A DNA stretch of 39,030 bases from Candidatus Cloacimonadota bacterium. GTDB lineage: Bacteria > Cloacimonadota > Cloacimonadia > JGIOTU-2. The position numbers were made by a program, and so were the translations under genes. Below, piece by piece: positions 6,820 to 35,947 of this stretch (the stretch's first letter is position 1; each line of letters starts with the position of its first letter). The notes under the pieces are model-generated. The model worked only from the letters and a program-made list of their open reading frames with translations, made no database searches and was not told where the DNA came from. The stretch covers positions 1 to 39,030 of the forward strand of contig JAUWMT010000025.1 in NCBI GenBank assembly GCA_030613025.1, written 5' to 3'.

Positions 6820-7263
6820 CGCACCTACGGCGCTAATATTATGATTGGTTTTTTGTTCCAAGCGCTTACGCTCCTTTTTACAAACATATCGTTCCTAACG
6901 GAACTTTTGTAATTGGGGGATATATAATTTCATCTTACATCCATATCGTTCCTGACGGAACTTATTAATAAGTTATTCTTCATCTCTAATCATAAACACC
7001 GGCTATGTTTGGTTTTTTTGTTCCATGAGCTTACGCTCATTATTACAAACATCTCGTTCCTAACGGAACTTATTAATAAATCGTACATTCATTTCATTTA
7101 AACAAGGGCTAACGCCCTTTACTACAAAGATTTCGTTCAGAATGGAACTTATGAATAAATTACACATTTATTTCAGCTAACACCATCGGTGTGACACATT
7201 CTAAACCAGATGCGTAAGCGTCTGGAACGTAATATAAAACCGATGCAAAGCACCATAGGTGCG
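6820..7263. repeat. Left mini-hairpin cluster
   Basis: Successive small stem-loops: 6821-6833 (GCACC/GGCGC, imperfect), 6861-6872 (AGCG/CGCT), 6891-6904 and 6948-6961 (GTTCC/GGAAC), 7025-7040 (ATGAGC-TTAC-GCTCAT), 7056-7069 (GTTCC-TAAC-GGAAC), 7104-7119 (AAGGGC-TAAC-GCCCTT), 7135-7148, 7180-7192 (ACACC-ATC-GGTGT), 7206-7225 (CCAGATGC-GTAA-GCGTCTGG) and 7250-7262 (GCACC-ATA-GGTGC). Stems differ but loops are short and alike. This accounts for the gene-free stretch 6772-7268. Confidence 0.85.
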
Positions 7264-7268
7264 ACATC

Positions 7269-7721
7269 TTATTGGAAAATATATCGTTCATCATATTCTA
7301 TTCCAAATAAATCCAATAATTTTTTATATTCCTCTTTGAAAGATATTTTCTTATGATGTTCCTTCTGATTTTTAATATAGTGGATAACGTCGTCGATATG
7401 AGAGCGGGAATAGGAAAACGCCCCGAATCCTGTCTGCCAATGAAATTTGTCAGTGAACCATTTTTTTTCATTAATGAATTTGGACGAATTTGATTTAATA
7501 TCTCTTACCAAATCGGATATCGATTTATCCGGTTTTAGACTGGCTAGAATATGGATATGGTCGGGCATTCCATTGATCTGTAATAATTTTTGTGCTTTGT
7601 TTCTAATGATTCCAGAAATATATTTGTAAATTTCATCTTCGTGCTCAGCAGTTATGAAGTTTCTCCTTTGCTTTGTCCCGAAAACCAGCATTACATAGAT
7701 TTGTGTGTATGTATTTGCCAT
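7269..7721 (-). CDS. REP-associated tyrosine transposase (RAYT, Y1_Tnp/IS200-like)
   Basis: A 150-aa single-domain Y1 HUH transposase. The metal-binding HUH motif is MPDHIHIL with H55 and H57; the catalytic tyrosine is Y115 in HYIKNQKEHH; the FHWQTGFGAFSYS segment at 93-105 and the C-terminal IEYDERY are typical of this branch. Such enzymes cleave and rejoin single-stranded DNA at REP-type hairpins. Length matches intact family members, and no frameshift is seen. The gene ends 6 bases from hairpin 7250-7262 and is preceded by hairpin 7740-7752, so it is embedded in the repeats it may act on. It carries no accessory TnpB. Confidence 0.92.
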   Translation of the reverse strand: MANTYTQIYVMLVFGTKQRRNFITAEHEDEIYKYISGIIRNKAQKLLQINGMPDHIHILASLKPDKSISDLVRDIKSNSSKFINEKKWFTDKFHWQTGFGAFSYSRSHIDDVIHYIKNQKEHHKKISFKEEYKKLLDLFGIEYDERYIFQ

Positions 7722-7738
7722 AGTACTCCTTTACATTC

Positions 7739-8217
7739 CGCACCTAGGGTGCTAATATCCTGTTTGGTTTTCTCTTTTCCATGAGCTTACGCTCATTATT
7801 ACAAACATCTCGTTCCTAACGGAACTTATTAATAAATCGTACATTCATTTCATCCCTTTATTATGACCATTAAGTTCCTGATGGAACTTTTGAATAAATG
7901 ATTTATTCATTTCAACTAATAGGTAAACACCAGCGGTGTGTAATATTTGTAAGTAGTTGTTTTAGTATCTGGAAAATTTATAATAGCCGACTTACCATTC
8001 ACTTTAGCATCCTTCATATTTCGCACCTACGGCGCTAATATTATGATTGGTTTTTTGTTCCAAGAGCTTACGCTCCTTTTTACAAACATATCGTTCCTGA
8101 CGGAACTTTTAATCGACATTTCATTCATTTCCATTAACACCAGCGGTGTTTAATATTTATAACCGGATGCGTGAGCATCTGGTTTATGAAAAAAATATAC
8201 AAAGCGCCGTAGGTGCG
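7739..8217. repeat. Right mini-hairpin cluster
   Basis: Stem-loops in nearly the same order as the left cluster: 7740-7752 (GCACC-TAG-GGTGC), 7781-7796 (ATGAGC-TTAC-GCTCAT), 7812-7825 and 7874-7887 (GTTCC/GGAAC), 7927-7939 (ACACC-AGC-GGTGT), 8023-8035, GAGC-TTAC-GCTC around 8064-8075, 8092-8105 (GTTCC-TGAC-GGAAC), 8136-8150 (AACACC-AGC-GGTGTT), 8163-8182 (CCGGATGC-GTGA-GCATCTGG), 8204-8216 (GCGCC-GTA-GGTGC). 7777-7853 repeats 7021-7097 exactly (77 bases); 8022-8110 repeats 6820-6908 with two differences. This accounts for 7722-8243. Confidence 0.85.
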
Positions 8218-8243: not shown

Positions 8244-10886
8244 TCAATCCAGATCAGAAACCCTTGAAACAGGACCCTTGAAAGTTACATCCTCAAATTC
8301 TCTAAAATGAGCCTTACCGCATTTAATCTTTTGAGTTTCACTTTCCCGCAATTGTTGACCTTCAGATTTTGTTTCTGCAACGAAATAAACTTTTGTTTCA
8401 TTCTTTTTTATTAAAGCCCAATCAGGATTATATTTGCCGATAGGTGTTTTTATATGAAACCAGAAAGGAAGTTTGAAATAAAACTCGATATCATCTCTCG
8501 TTTCACATTCTTTCGCAAACTCATACTCAACATTTGAATCGAGTGGAATTATGTTATCGTATATTGTTTTCTTATTATTTTTAACTTCGAATTTTAATCT
8601 ATCTAAATAAATATTAATTTCATCTTCTTCAAAAAGATGCATTTCGTATTCTTTATTCCCAATTTTTTCGTATTTAATCCCATCAATAATTAAATCATTC
8701 AAAACTTTATTTATCTTTTCTGCAACAAAATCCATGAAGAGTTGCGGATTGGTGAGAGAATCCGGTAAACGACTGGAATTTTTCAATATCTGTAAAATAG
8801 TAAAACGGGTTAAACCGGTTTTGTTCTGAATATAATTTAGAATATCTGGTATTGAAAAACTACTCTTAATATATATTTTCTTTGTACCTTTAAGGTCACC
8901 ATCGACGCCTTCATATTCATATTTCAGTAACTTTTTTGTGAATTTTATAAAAGTTTCAGTAATTTCAGGCATATCTTTAATTGCTTTAGATGCTTTATCA
9001 ACTAAATTGGAAGTTTGATAATTCACGCAATAGGTTGTCTTATATTTTATCCTTTTCCAGATTTCTTTGAAATTCTCATCGAGTTCAAAGCCTTTACGAT
9101 ATTCAACTTTTACTCTATCCTGTTTGTTCTTAATTCTACCTTTGAAAGAAACTCCGCAATCATCTTCGATCTCTTTTTGAAGCTGCTTGGCAAAATCTTC
9201 ATAACTCTCATTGGCAATCACGGTTAAGCGATTAATGTTATTATCAAATATTCTTTCACCTTCCTGATTTACCGAAAGTCTTAAACCTCTGCCGATTTCC
9301 TGTCTTTTCTTCAATTCGGATTTAGTTTCATTTAAAGTACAGATCTGAAAAACATTTGGATTATCCCAACCTTCCCTTAAAGCTGAATGACTGAAAATAA
9401 ATCTCAAAGGTTCATCTGAATCCAAAAGTTTCTCTTTTTCTTTCATTATTAATTTGAAAGTATCGATGTCCGCTTGAGATTTTGCTGCTTTTTGAGAATC
9501 TTTAAAATGACCCTTTTTATCCTGAGCAAAATAACCATTGTGAACTTCTTTTATGGAAAAAGGAATTAAATCTTTATATGCTGATTTCTCTGTATATTTA
9601 TTAAATATCTCCTCAAACCAAACTGCAAATTTGCCTTTCAATAAATTCCCCAATTCATCATACTTTCTGTAATTAGCAACTCGATCTATGAAAAAAAGCG
9701 AAAGAACTTTTATCCCTTTTTTCTGCAAAATTCTTTCTTTTTTGAAATGTTCCTCGATTGTTTTTTCAATCTGGAATTTCATTATTTCATCTGTTATTCC
9801 ACCACGAGATTCACCAACAAAAATATCATCTCCATTCGATAAAGAAATACATTCATTGGAAACATCTATTTCATTGATGATATAACCATTTTTGTAAATT
9901 TCCCGATAATTGGAAAGTTTAAAAAGGTCATCCCCAACTTTTACAGACACAGCTTTTTTGATAACTCCTTTATCTGTGTTTTGGATTATGCGGATTCTGG
10001 CAGAAGTTCGGGTTGCAGTTGAACTCACTATTTCCAAACTTATAAAAGCATCGTTAAAATCATTTTCCGAAACTACGGAATCCACTTCGATATGTTTTAC
10101 CAAACCGAGATCATAAGCCTGAACCGGGTTCAAGCTGTAAACCAAATTATAAAAATTTGTGTGCGTTGCTGAATAACGAAGAGTGCAGTAATAATTCAAA
10201 TTTTTGATCGCTTTCTTACGAATGGATGTTTCCATATTTTGCGGTTCATCCACAATTACTATCGGGTTTGTGTATTGAATGAATTCTATCGGTTTTTTAC
10301 CGGTCAGTTTATCATTCGGTTTATTGATTATATTTTCATCTTTGGCAAAGGAATCTATATTGATAACCAAAATTTGAATATTATTATTTGTAGCGAATGA
10401 ACGTAGATTGGAAACTTTCCTGGAATCATAAACTTCAAAATTTACAGGAGTTTTATCATATAGGTTTTGGAAATGTTCATGAGTGATTTGCAGATTTTTG
10501 ATCACACCTTCACGAATAGCAACACTCGGAACAACTATCACAAATTTCTTGAACCCATAATTTTTATTAAGTTCGTAAATGGTTCGCAGATAAACATAAG
10601 TTTTGCCGGTTCCTGTTTCCATCTCAACTGAAAAGTGCATTCCATCTAATTTTTTAGAGATCGGTTCTATTCCATTCTGCTTTTGAACAGATTGCAGATT
10701 TTTCAGGATTTGTTCATCATTCAAAACAATTCTATTACCAACGCCAGTTTCTGAAAATTGCAGACTTGTATCTAAAAATGTGAAATCCAATTCGCTTTGA
10801 TTTAACGGCTGTCCTTCAAATAAATCTACGATTGATTTTATTGCATCTAATTGGAAGGATTGATTTGGGTCAAATTGGAGGATCAT
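8244..10886 (-). CDS. res: Type III restriction enzyme, Res subunit
   Basis: An 880-aa superfamily 2 translocase/nuclease. FQLDAI at 11-16 and LFEGQP at 22-27 are the usual type III Res start. Walker A is TGTGKT at 91-96, motif II is DEPQ at 213-216, and the late helicase block SALREGWDNPNVFQI is followed by RQEIGRGLRL (motif VI). The C-terminal PD-(D/E)xK nuclease is visible as P821-D822 and E838-x-K840 (PDW, AETK). It cuts DNA when it meets unmethylated sites together with Mod. It is the last gene of a six-gene minus-strand operon, 8 bases after vsr, and about 3.8 kb from its mod partner, which is unusual because res normally follows mod directly. All key motifs are intact. Confidence 0.93.
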   Translation of the reverse strand: MILQFDPNQSFQLDAIKSIVDLFEGQPLNQSELDFTFLDTSLQFSETGVGNRIVLNDEQILKNLQSVQKQNGIEPISKKLDGMHFSVEMETGTGKTYVYLRTIYELNKNYGFKKFVIVVPSVAIREGVIKNLQITHEHFQNLYDKTPVNFEVYDSRKVSNLRSFATNNNIQILVINIDSFAKDENIINKPNDKLTGKKPIEFIQYTNPIVIVDEPQNMETSIRKKAIKNLNYYCTLRYSATHTNFYNLVYSLNPVQAYDLGLVKHIEVDSVVSENDFNDAFISLEIVSSTATRTSARIRIIQNTDKGVIKKAVSVKVGDDLFKLSNYREIYKNGYIINEIDVSNECISLSNGDDIFVGESRGGITDEIMKFQIEKTIEEHFKKERILQKKGIKVLSLFFIDRVANYRKYDELGNLLKGKFAVWFEEIFNKYTEKSAYKDLIPFSIKEVHNGYFAQDKKGHFKDSQKAAKSQADIDTFKLIMKEKEKLLDSDEPLRFIFSHSALREGWDNPNVFQICTLNETKSELKKRQEIGRGLRLSVNQEGERIFDNNINRLTVIANESYEDFAKQLQKEIEDDCGVSFKGRIKNKQDRVKVEYRKGFELDENFKEIWKRIKYKTTYCVNYQTSNLVDKASKAIKDMPEITETFIKFTKKLLKYEYEGVDGDLKGTKKIYIKSSFSIPDILNYIQNKTGLTRFTILQILKNSSRLPDSLTNPQLFMDFVAEKINKVLNDLIIDGIKYEKIGNKEYEMHLFEEDEINIYLDRLKFEVKNNKKTIYDNIIPLDSNVEYEFAKECETRDDIEFYFKLPFWFHIKTPIGKYNPDWALIKKNETKVYFVAETKSEGQQLRESETQKIKCGKAHFREFEDVTFKGPVSRVSDLD

Positions 10887-10894
10887 ATCATTAC

Positions 10895-11308
10895 CTAAAT
10901 AACTAAAAAAGATTTAATCTTTTGTTGTAAATATTCTGTGTTTTTTGTTTTGATTTCACATTGCCAGACTACTAAAACACTCCATCCAAGTTCTTTAAAT
11001 TTATCATAATTTTTCTTATCTCTTTTTACATTTCCCAAAATCTTTTTTTCCCAGAATTCTTTATTTGTTTCCGGTAATTTACCTCGTTTACAAATGTGAT
11101 GATGCCAAAAACATCCGTTAATAAAAATGACTTTTTTATATTTTGGGAACACTAAATCGGGTTTCCCGGGTAAATCATTACTATGTAAACGATAACGATA
11201 GCCCAATGAAAAGATTAATTTTCGAATAAACAACTCTTGCTTTGAATTCTTAGGTCCAATTTTTTTCATTATATCGGAACGTTTATTTGAATTAAAAATA
11301 TCAGTCAT
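10895..11308 (-). CDS. vsr: Very short patch repair endonuclease Vsr
   Basis: A 137-aa Vsr nickase, full length for the family. The opening MTDIFNSNKRSDIM is the usual signature; catalytic D51 lies in GKPDLVF and H69 in GCFWHHH, at the same positions as in E. coli Vsr. It nicks beside T:G mismatches that arise when 5-methylcytosine deaminates. The gene starts inside the end of the C5 methylase (8-base overlap, 11301-11308), the classical pairing, so the protein should serve the mutagenic cost of that methylase. Translational coupling is likely. Confidence 0.95.
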   Translation of the reverse strand: MTDIFNSNKRSDIMKKIGPKNSKQELFIRKLIFSLGYRYRLHSNDLPGKPDLVFPKYKKVIFINGCFWHHHICKRGKLPETNKEFWEKKILGNVKRDKKNYDKFKELGWSVLVVWQCEIKTKNTEYLQQKIKSFLVI

Positions 11309-12341
11309 TTAGATAAACTTTCAAATGATTATAAATATTTTTTGATTGTATTTCGCTAAATTTTGGAGGTAAAGCATTACCAATCATAAGTGCTAATGAT
11401 GTTTTTGATATATCAGTTGGAAACTTATAATTTCTTGGAAAAGTTTGTAATAATGCAGCTTCTCGCGCTGAAATACAACGATTTTCTTCCGGATGCAGAA
11501 ATCGACCTTTTGAAGGATTTAAACATCCACCGGTGATTGTTGAAGATTCTTTATCCCATCTTAAACGACCGTAAATATCATTGAAACCTACATTATTCTT
11601 CTTGTGACACTCAAGTATATATCGTTTTGGTAAATCCTTTCTACTGCCGCCATCTTGAGGAATTCTTTTTATAATATTTTGGATTCTCTTTGTATGGTGA
11701 GCTACAATCTTATGAATCGGATCTTCAGTTTGATTTATAGATTCTAATGAACCTATCGCATCTCTCACCGTAATAATTTCATCATTTCCATTAGATACTG
11801 TTATTTCCCCTAATTTAGAACCTAGTAATACAAGGCGTTTTCTTCTTTGCGGAACTTTATAATTTTTTACATTTACTACCTTATAATCTATATGGTATCC
11901 TAATTTAATAAGTTCTTTAACAAGTTTTTTAAAAAGATAATAATTTATAATTCCCGGAACATTTTCAAGCATAATTGCTAAAGGATTTAATTCTTTTACA
12001 TACTTTAAAAAATCAATAATTAATTTATTTCTTTCATCGGGACTGCTATACTTTTTATTTCTTCTTCTAATCGAAGAAAAACCCTGGCAAGGTGGACAAC
12101 CTGCAAGTAAATGAAGTTGTGTTCCATTAAGTTTGTTTTTTAATTCTCTCAAAACAGAAATATCTCTAATATCCTTAACGATCAAATTAGTTTCAGGATG
12201 ATTTAATGCATAGCATTTTGCAGCATCTTTATCAATCTCAACTGCAGCAATTACTTTAAAACCAGCTTGTTTTAATCCTTCTGTTAAACCACCACATCCG
12301 GAGAAAAGGTCGATTGCATTTAACGTATGATTTTTATTCAT
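11301..12341 (-). CDS. dcm: C5-cytosine DNA methyltransferase
   Basis: A 346-aa C5 methylase with all main motifs in order: I (DLFSGCGGL, 11-19), IV with catalytic C85 (GCPPCQGFSS), VI (ENVPG, E126), VIII (QRRKRL), then a short target-recognition region, and IX/X (ARLLQTFP-like REAALLQTFP and MIGNALPP). Length suits Dcm/Vsr-associated enzymes. It starts 14 bases after the GHKL ATPase gene and overlaps vsr. No cognate C5-specific restriction nuclease of conventional type is seen nearby; the GHKL protein may be the partner. Target sequence cannot be read from the protein; the symbol denotes the family, not CCWGG specificity. Confidence 0.93.
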   Translation of the reverse strand: MNKNHTLNAIDLFSGCGGLTEGLKQAGFKVIAAVEIDKDAAKCYALNHPETNLIVKDIRDISVLRELKNKLNGTQLHLLAGCPPCQGFSSIRRRNKKYSSPDERNKLIIDFLKYVKELNPLAIMLENVPGIINYYLFKKLVKELIKLGYHIDYKVVNVKNYKVPQRRKRLVLLGSKLGEITVSNGNDEIITVRDAIGSLESINQTEDPIHKIVAHHTKRIQNIIKRIPQDGGSRKDLPKRYILECHKKNNVGFNDIYGRLRWDKESSTITGGCLNPSKGRFLHPEENRCISAREAALLQTFPRNYKFPTDISKTSLALMIGNALPPKFSEIQSKNIYNHLKVYLND

Positions 12342-35414: not shown

Positions 35415-35947
35415 CAATTACCCCCAATTATTTTCGATTACCATTGTACTCCTTATATTATGTATTCTATTTTGAAGAGTAATTCCCACAAGTACTTGTT
35501 TCTGTTCCACTAACTTGCTCTCTCGTCCTAATTGCAGTCTTCAATAAGAAAAATCTCTCTATTCTGGGAAGTGTGATAGAGAGGTGGTCGCTAGGTGAAT
35601 TTGTTCTTAACAATATAATTCATACTTTTTCCTTTTATATATTTGAGTCCACTCTAAAAAGTTCAATTTAAGAAATCGAGAAACCGTTGAAACGGTTAAT
35701 GTATTTTTTTGTTTTATTAACCACCAACTTAAGTTGGTGGTTAATAGAAAGATAGCTAATTGTAACCGATTTATCGGTTTCCAAATATTTGATGCATTTT
35801 CTAACATATTTCTAATTACACACTTTTTAGAGTAAACTCATATTTATAAAAAATTAAAGTTATATTTTTTATGGTATACTGAAAATATTTTGTCAAATTT
35901 TTTATCTAAACTTAGATTAGATTTTCGATATTTCAACAAAAATTCGT
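35415..35947. other. Gene-free gap, AT-rich, holding the MITE-like element
   Basis: The left part (35415-35637) shows no feature that I can name. The centre is the element at 35638-35846. The right part is AT-rich with nothing clear. A 66-codon frame at 35607-35807 reads through the hairpins and is not credible as a gene. Confidence 0.6.
35638..35846. mobile_element. MITE-like element with inverted ends and three palindromes
   Basis: Left end 35638-35662 and right end 35822-35846 are inverted repeats (core ACTCTAAAAAGT/ACTTTTTAGAGT exact over 12 bases, about 4 mismatches over 25). Inside: AACCGTT-GA-AACGGTT (35682-35697), a perfect 30-base palindrome centred at 35730/35731 (half-site ATTAACCACCAACTT), and AACCGAT-TT-ATCGGTT (35764-35779), the outer hairpins in mirrored orientation. 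About 209 bases, no coding capacity: a non-autonomous element or a REP-pair unit. Confidence 0.65.

Follow-up and report, generated by a model that had tools for sequence, protein, structure and literature searches.

Mirrored hairpin arms around a subclass 1.2 TnpA_Y1 gene in Candidatus Cloacimonadota suggest a REPIN/REPtron-like system with its tag 3' of the hairpin

We suggest that positions 6820–8217 of the 39,030-bp stretch of Candidatus Cloacimonadota DNA analysed here (the window) hold a REPIN/REPtron-like system of a TnpA_Y1 protein of subclass 1.2, in which the tag lies 3' of the hairpin. We put the probability of this reading at roughly two in three. The locus consists of about 22 short hairpins, slightly mismatched ones included, around a Y1 (HUH) gene of 150 aa. 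It is also reasonably likely that in many phyla each subclass 1.2 protein has its own cognate hairpins, short ones of a class not recognised before, with GNA or GNNA loops, an RTAG cleavage tag 9 nt 3' and mirrored multi-hairpin arms, and that the stems diversify by compensation since recognition by the enzyme depends on shape, loop and tag rather than on stem sequence.

The gene lies between the hairpin blocks:
7269–7721, minus strand: Y1 HUH transposase-like gene of subclass 1.2 type, 150 aa (Pfam, NCBIfam, motif)

Its product matches Pfam Y1_Tnp (6.6e-27). Since it scores above the cut-off of NCBIfam transpos_IS200 (74.5 bits, cut-off 55) and below that of REP_Tyr_transpos (40.8 bits, cut-off 80), RAYT, the name given to it in a preliminary description of this DNA, is a loose label for this gene. 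The motifs DHIH, WQ and YIKNQKEHH and the length of 150 aa agree with TnpA_Y1 subclass 1.2, which is defined by Y---Q--HH, an HuH motif DH[IV]H, WQ and about 148 aa (Table 1 of Quentin et al. 2018, PMC6006769). Judged by these motifs, the protein is a TnpA_Y1 of subclass 1.2 and no canonical RAYT. We rejected a canonical class-2 RAYT identity on the same two grounds, the missed REP_Tyr_transpos cut-off and Y---Q in place of Y---NP. The nearest solved structures by sequence are the TnpA proteins of ISDra2 and IS608, and the closest relative in named genomes (93% identity) is from a Candidatus Cloacimonadota MAG (L061). The catalytic motifs are intact and the gene is the only copy of its kind in the 2.8-Mb draft genome (G000), of which the window is one entire contig (C93). 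Four canonical class-2 RAYT-like genes are found elsewhere in this genome (C95, C35, C60 and C86), thus two systems coexist.

Subclass 1.2 has been listed with REP = no, its members generally being without typical terminal IS200 structures (PMC6006769). In that study REPs were sought automatically by GT[AG]G at a hairpin's 5' foot, so a tag on the 3' side would escape the search. In contrast to the listing, we find tagged units and dense hairpins adjoining genes of this subclass.

The preliminary description had counted more than twenty stem-loops around the gene, and this count stands. Perfect hairpins (stem of at least 5, loop of 3–4, GC of at least 3) number 15 in the non-coding flanks, whereas 1000 dinucleotide shuffles gave 0.31 on average and never more than 3. 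All five stem kinds that it named are present within the coordinates given, namely GCACC/GCGCC, GAGC (also GGGC), GTTCC, ACACC and GATGC, as are the loops TAAC, TGAC, TTAC and GTAA. They are not five independent REP types, since they reduce to three hairpin positions (A, B and T) in two diverged, mirrored arms. Two such inverted arms, each with three hairpins, form a module of about 200 bp in the order T(GCACC)-B(GAGC)-A(GTTCC) facing A'(ACACC)-B'(GATGC)-T'(GCACC). Read in functional orientation, one arm is made up of hairpin A (5-bp stem, loop of 3–4 nt), 9 nt (GATATGTTT-like), GTAR, hairpin B and the terminal hairpin T. In the right arm A is GTTCC, B is GAGC or GGGC and T is GCACC; in the mirrored left arm A' is ACACC, B' is GATGC and T' is GCACC. 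The constant part, the hairpin-9nt-RTAR unit, is absent from the preliminary description. Tags in the window are mostly GTAA rather than GTAG. The T hairpins share the stem class of the other hairpins but carry no tag, and so may be binding-only ends.

Three modules in direct orientation are found at the locus, an internally expanded one 3' of the gene and two 5' of it, with DNA folding z-scores of −6.4, −6.25 and −4.8 for the three:
6820–7263, minus strand: module 1, 3' of the gene, T B A/A/B A/B A mirrored to A' B' T', internally expanded (repeats, hairpin map, fold z −6.43)
7739–7971, minus strand: module 2, 5' of the gene, T B A A mirrored to A' and a degenerate B' (repeats, fold)
8022–8217, minus strand: module 3, outermost 5', complete T B A mirrored to A' B' T' (exact 15-bp inverted ends, fold; gene-less relatives on C11, 80%, and C49, 69%)

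Their arms and hairpins, with scores from covariance model R1 where one applies, are as follows:
6859–6904, minus strand: arm A-9-GTAA-B with one mismatch in B (R1, 64.4 bits)
7024–7069, minus strand: arm of A (GTTCC-GTTA-GGAAC), 9 nt, GTAA and B (GAGC-GTAA-GCTC) (R1, 66.2 bits)
7103–7148, minus strand: arm A-9-GTAG-B with B = GGGC-GTTA-GCCC, the GTAG tag being kept (R1, 59.1 bits)
7780–7825, minus strand: arm A-9-GTAA-B (R1, 66.2 bits)
8061–8106, minus strand: arm A-9-GTAA-B (R1, 63.6 bits)
7180–7224, plus strand: mirrored arm A' (ACACC) - B' (GATGC/GCGTC), 31 bp from 7103–7148 (R1, 49.3 bits)
7927–7971, plus strand: mirrored arm A' with a degenerate B' (R1, 28.4 bits)
8137–8181, plus strand: mirrored arm A' (ACACC) - B' (GATGC), 30 bp from 8061–8106 (R1, 54 bits)
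6948–6961, minus strand: lone hairpin A (GTTCC-GTCA-GGAAC) (hairpin map)
7872–7889, minus strand: lone hairpin A (AAGTTCC-ATCA-GGAACTT) (hairpin map)
6821–6833, unstranded: terminal hairpin T (GCGCC-GTA-GGTGC, minus-strand reading) (hairpin map)
7250–7262, unstranded: terminal hairpin T' adjoining the stop codon of the gene (hairpin map)
7740–7752, unstranded: terminal hairpin T adjoining the start of the gene (hairpin map)
8023–8035, unstranded: terminal hairpin T of module 3 (hairpin map)
8204–8216, unstranded: terminal hairpin T' of module 3 (repeats)

Because one module recurs in direct orientation, the stems follow the same order on both sides of the gene, as had been noticed before. The outer ends, 6820–6834 and 8203–8217, are indeed exact inverted copies. 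They do not mark the boundary of the block, since 8022–8036 is just as exact an inverted copy of 8203–8217 and 7739–7753/7249–7263 are near-exact. Every module has T/T' ends, so the inverted ends bound each module and not the block as a whole. Next to the element, at 8244–12341, is a restriction-modification island with a type III-like helicase/endonuclease, a Vsr endonuclease and a C5 cytosine methylase. Far from it, at 35630–35800, three hairpins stand in a row (AACCGTTGAAACGGTT, ACCACCAACTTAAGTTGGTGG and AACCGATTTATCGGTT) in the style of the arms beside another subclass 1.2 gene (L226), and they are possibly an orphan module of another family.

Homologs of the protein are found in 61 of 148 related genomes and in named genomes of Flavobacterium, Chryseobacterium, Epilithonimonas, Hymenobacter, Verrucomicrobia, Acidobacteria, KSB1, Neomarinimicrobiota and others, and 110 loci were analysed. 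The motif Y...Q..HH is carried by 104 of the 110 homologs. Across these loci hairpins are densest next to the gene, with 6.86 per kb in the 500-bp flanks compared with 1.09 per kb distally (1.5–3 kb away). Hairpin-9nt-RTAG units reach 1.58 per kb beside subclass 1.2 genes, 0.01 distally and 0.0 per kb in 40 flanks of class-2 RAYTs from related genomes, which makes the unit specific. When GTAG follows a hairpin on its 3' side within about 20 nt, it is exactly 9 nt away in 105 of 158 cases. GTRG within 6 nt of the 5' side, as in a canonical REP, accompanies only 28 of 1460 hairpins. A unit with RTAR lies within 400 bp of the gene at 80 of the 110 loci, and most of the other 30, where no exact unit lies in that range, still have hairpin arrays. 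On the functional strand, GTA and GTTA predominate among the loops of the family. Upstream of the gene the functional strand is the coding strand and downstream it is the complement; thus the flanks are inverted around the gene.

This strand switch bears on the idea that the hairpins act as RNA, being terminators, attenuators or processing sites for the gene and its neighbours. The hairpins do flank the gene closely, some would form in a transcript, and one module is just upstream of uvrA. In an RNA role, however, neither mirroring across the gene, onto the complement strand downstream, nor a constant tag at a constant 9 nt would be expected, and gene-less arrays exist. A search of Rfam gave one chance-level match and no family above the gathering score, and the U-runs typical of terminators are absent. 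We regard an RNA role as very improbable.

Between the two arms, as well as across the family, the stems covary strongly: they change by compensation, whereas loops, tag, spacing and order are kept. This agrees with the preliminary description, which had proposed compensatory stems with constant loops and order. Matches to the linker-plus-RTAG motif, chosen blind to pairing, are preceded by a perfect stem in 174 of 338 cases in the flanks and in 2 of 151 distally. After removal of redundancy, 126 of 286 matches have a perfect stem, with 24 distinct stems among them, compared with a mean of 12 and a maximum of 23 when the 3' arms are re-dealt. This motif-only permutation is the non-circular test of covariation, since the alignment across the family (A1) was chosen for perfect pairing and its 100% is circular. 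Left and right arms can be aligned with one loop gap. In the alignment of Cloacimonadota arms (A2), which was assembled by eye from arms of the genus and so leans towards structure, 97.5% of paired cells pair, compared with 79.0% when the 3' letters are shuffled, and 50 cells hold double changes compared with 17.7. Strong covariation means that the single-strand structure is under selection, and it can be used to find such elements in other genomes.

Such upkeep of stems across phyla would not be expected if the locus were a decayed IS200/IS605 element, with hairpins that are old ends duplicated by slippage and a gene in the course of being lost. This reading has some appeal: the protein is closest to IS200/IS605 TnpA, the modules are locally duplicated in direct orientation, and in G005 the gene is gone, with one module and a gene relic left. 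On the other hand, IS200/IS605 ends are one same-strand hairpin each and not mirrored arms, the catalytic residues of the protein are intact, and there is a single copy per genome. We therefore consider decay improbable and favor a REPIN/REPtron-like system.

Modules also occur away from the gene. Complete gene-less modules were found by BLAST on C11 (80%) and C49 (69%), and four contig ends, those of C13, C15, C18 and C79, break inside the element. The genome search did not give the outcome that the preliminary description named as its refutation, stem types never found near each other: they occur together and in the same order at C11, at C49 and in sister genomes. With a covariance model of the A-9-RTAR-B arm, 13 of 15 related genomes were found to hold dispersed arms; G002 is one of the 13, and no gene of the Y1 subclass 1.2 kind was detected in it. 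Since loops vary, the count is too low when an exact pattern with GTA loops is searched across the genome. Facing arms are exactly 31 bp apart in 14 adjacent pairs. Upstream of uvrA, G000 and G001 have a module that G004–G006 lack, and both flanks align; comparison with the empty site gave no base-exact boundary and no target duplication. The gene-less copies at uvrA, on C11 and in G005 keep a relic of the 3' end of the gene next to T', so T is subterminal.

Many of the dispersed modules of the genus sit inside a separate MITE with TACCCCC ends. This MITE-like repeat of 300–600 bp, with ends TACCCCCAAAA ... TTTTGGGGGTA, is found in several species of the genus, and its copies occur with and without the hairpin module (L003 at C11:12410-13012, L148, L149 and L205–L218). 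When MITE copies that hold the module were aligned by MAFFT with those that lack it, no base-exact insertion point emerged. Modules inside the MITE spread with it, so copy number overstates movement by the Y1 protein. It could be argued from these copies, which are most of the dispersed ones, that the modules are ordinary MITE material moved by another transposase and that the Y1 gene is there by chance. We think this quite unlikely, since hairpin-9nt-RTAG units flank homologs in Bacteroidota, Verrucomicrobia, Cloacimonadota and others without such a MITE, and copies at uvrA, on C203 and on C76 are outside it. The organisation is REPIN-like, with dispersed inverted units, a spacer between them and one HUH gene, and the MITE accounts for part of the spread.

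Gene-less arrays are present outside the phylum as well, as tandem 51-bp units in Epilithonimonas and as A-T mirrored to T-A in a Verrucomicrobium. The array of Epilithonimonas tenax (L167, 2430–2840) stands between DNA-repair genes, and no Y1 gene was found within the 5 kb examined. With units whose length is divisible by three, the array forms one long open frame of 17-residue repeats. In G008 (genus g2; L222, L220) there are dispersed and tandem A-GTAG-B-T arms with GCACC stems; they are unlike the arms at the two surviving subclass 1.2 genes of this genome and are thus orphan arms.

In three species of the genus the gene is single-copy and stands at the same locus, with unchanged neighbours. 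The number of modules at this home locus varies between sister species, which fits local copying or recombination, and the copy number of modules in the genome itself is low. The protein could accordingly be one domesticated for processing of host ssDNA, with arrays that are fixed binding sites and little or no mobility today, all the more as module numbers change locally more than modules spread. The insertion polymorphism at uvrA and the gene-less copies in several genomes speak against fixed sites, however, as does G124, where the gene is at a different locus with flanking modules that are 95% identical. Domestication is an unlikely reading, though one to be kept in mind, and we prefer a REPIN/REPtron-like system that may still move on occasion.

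In such a system the HUH protein would bind the hairpins as single strands and would recognise them by stem shape and loop (GTA, GTTA) more than by stem sequence. Cleavage may fall on the RTAR tag, 9 nt from hairpin A on the 3' side, much as IS200/IS605 TnpA cuts a tetranucleotide that follows its right-end hairpin on the 3' side, with the T hairpins possibly acting as ends for binding only. Modules could in this way be copied or rearranged around the gene and occasionally elsewhere. The hairpins are the apparent DNA partner of a widespread HUH protein group that is listed as having none, and this orphan group becomes testable with short oligonucleotides. The open literature that was searched, with subscription papers outside its scope, held nothing on the commonest hairpin (GCTCCGTAGGAGC) or on follow-ups of subclass 1.2.

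Among known systems, TIRYT/TIRtron elements are similar in having a Y1 gene within long inverted repeats, some of them self-complementary, with members elsewhere (PMC3733652). Their proteins are mostly of subclass 2.1, with GGGGWSAS repeats, and no hairpin-9nt-RTAG unit is described for them (PMC3733652). TnpA_Y1 of subclass 1.2 shares motif, length and low copy number with the protein of the window, but cognate hairpin units are present here, unlike in the published description (PMC6006769). The organisation of the locus works like that of a REPtron/REPIN, but its protein falls outside the class-2 RAYTs and its tag is on the opposite side. Like TnpA_REP/RAYT (class 2) systems, it has an HUH Y1 protein, a single gene copy, a GTAG-like tetranucleotide, inverted pairs of short palindromes in the flanks and gene-less copies elsewhere. 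It differs in that the protein is class 1-like (Y...Q..HH) where a RAYT has Y...NP, the tag is 9 nt 3' of the hairpin and not at its 5' foot as in a REP, and the arms hold two or three different hairpins.

IS200/IS605 TnpA proteins (IS608, ISDra2; subclass 1.1) are the closest structures by sequence and share the Y...Q motif. At its right end, IS608 is cleaved at a tetranucleotide about 10 nt from the hairpin on the 3' side, and the hairpin-9nt-tag order found here resembles this. An IS200/IS605 insertion sequence, which is multicopy with one subterminal hairpin at each end, was considered and rejected. Its left and right hairpins are on the same strand, whereas we find mirrored multi-hairpin arms, a single gene copy, low copy number and no TnpB adjoining the gene. 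Thus, the tag on the opposite side and the multi-hairpin arms place this system between IS200/IS605 and REP, and it bears on the origin of REP.
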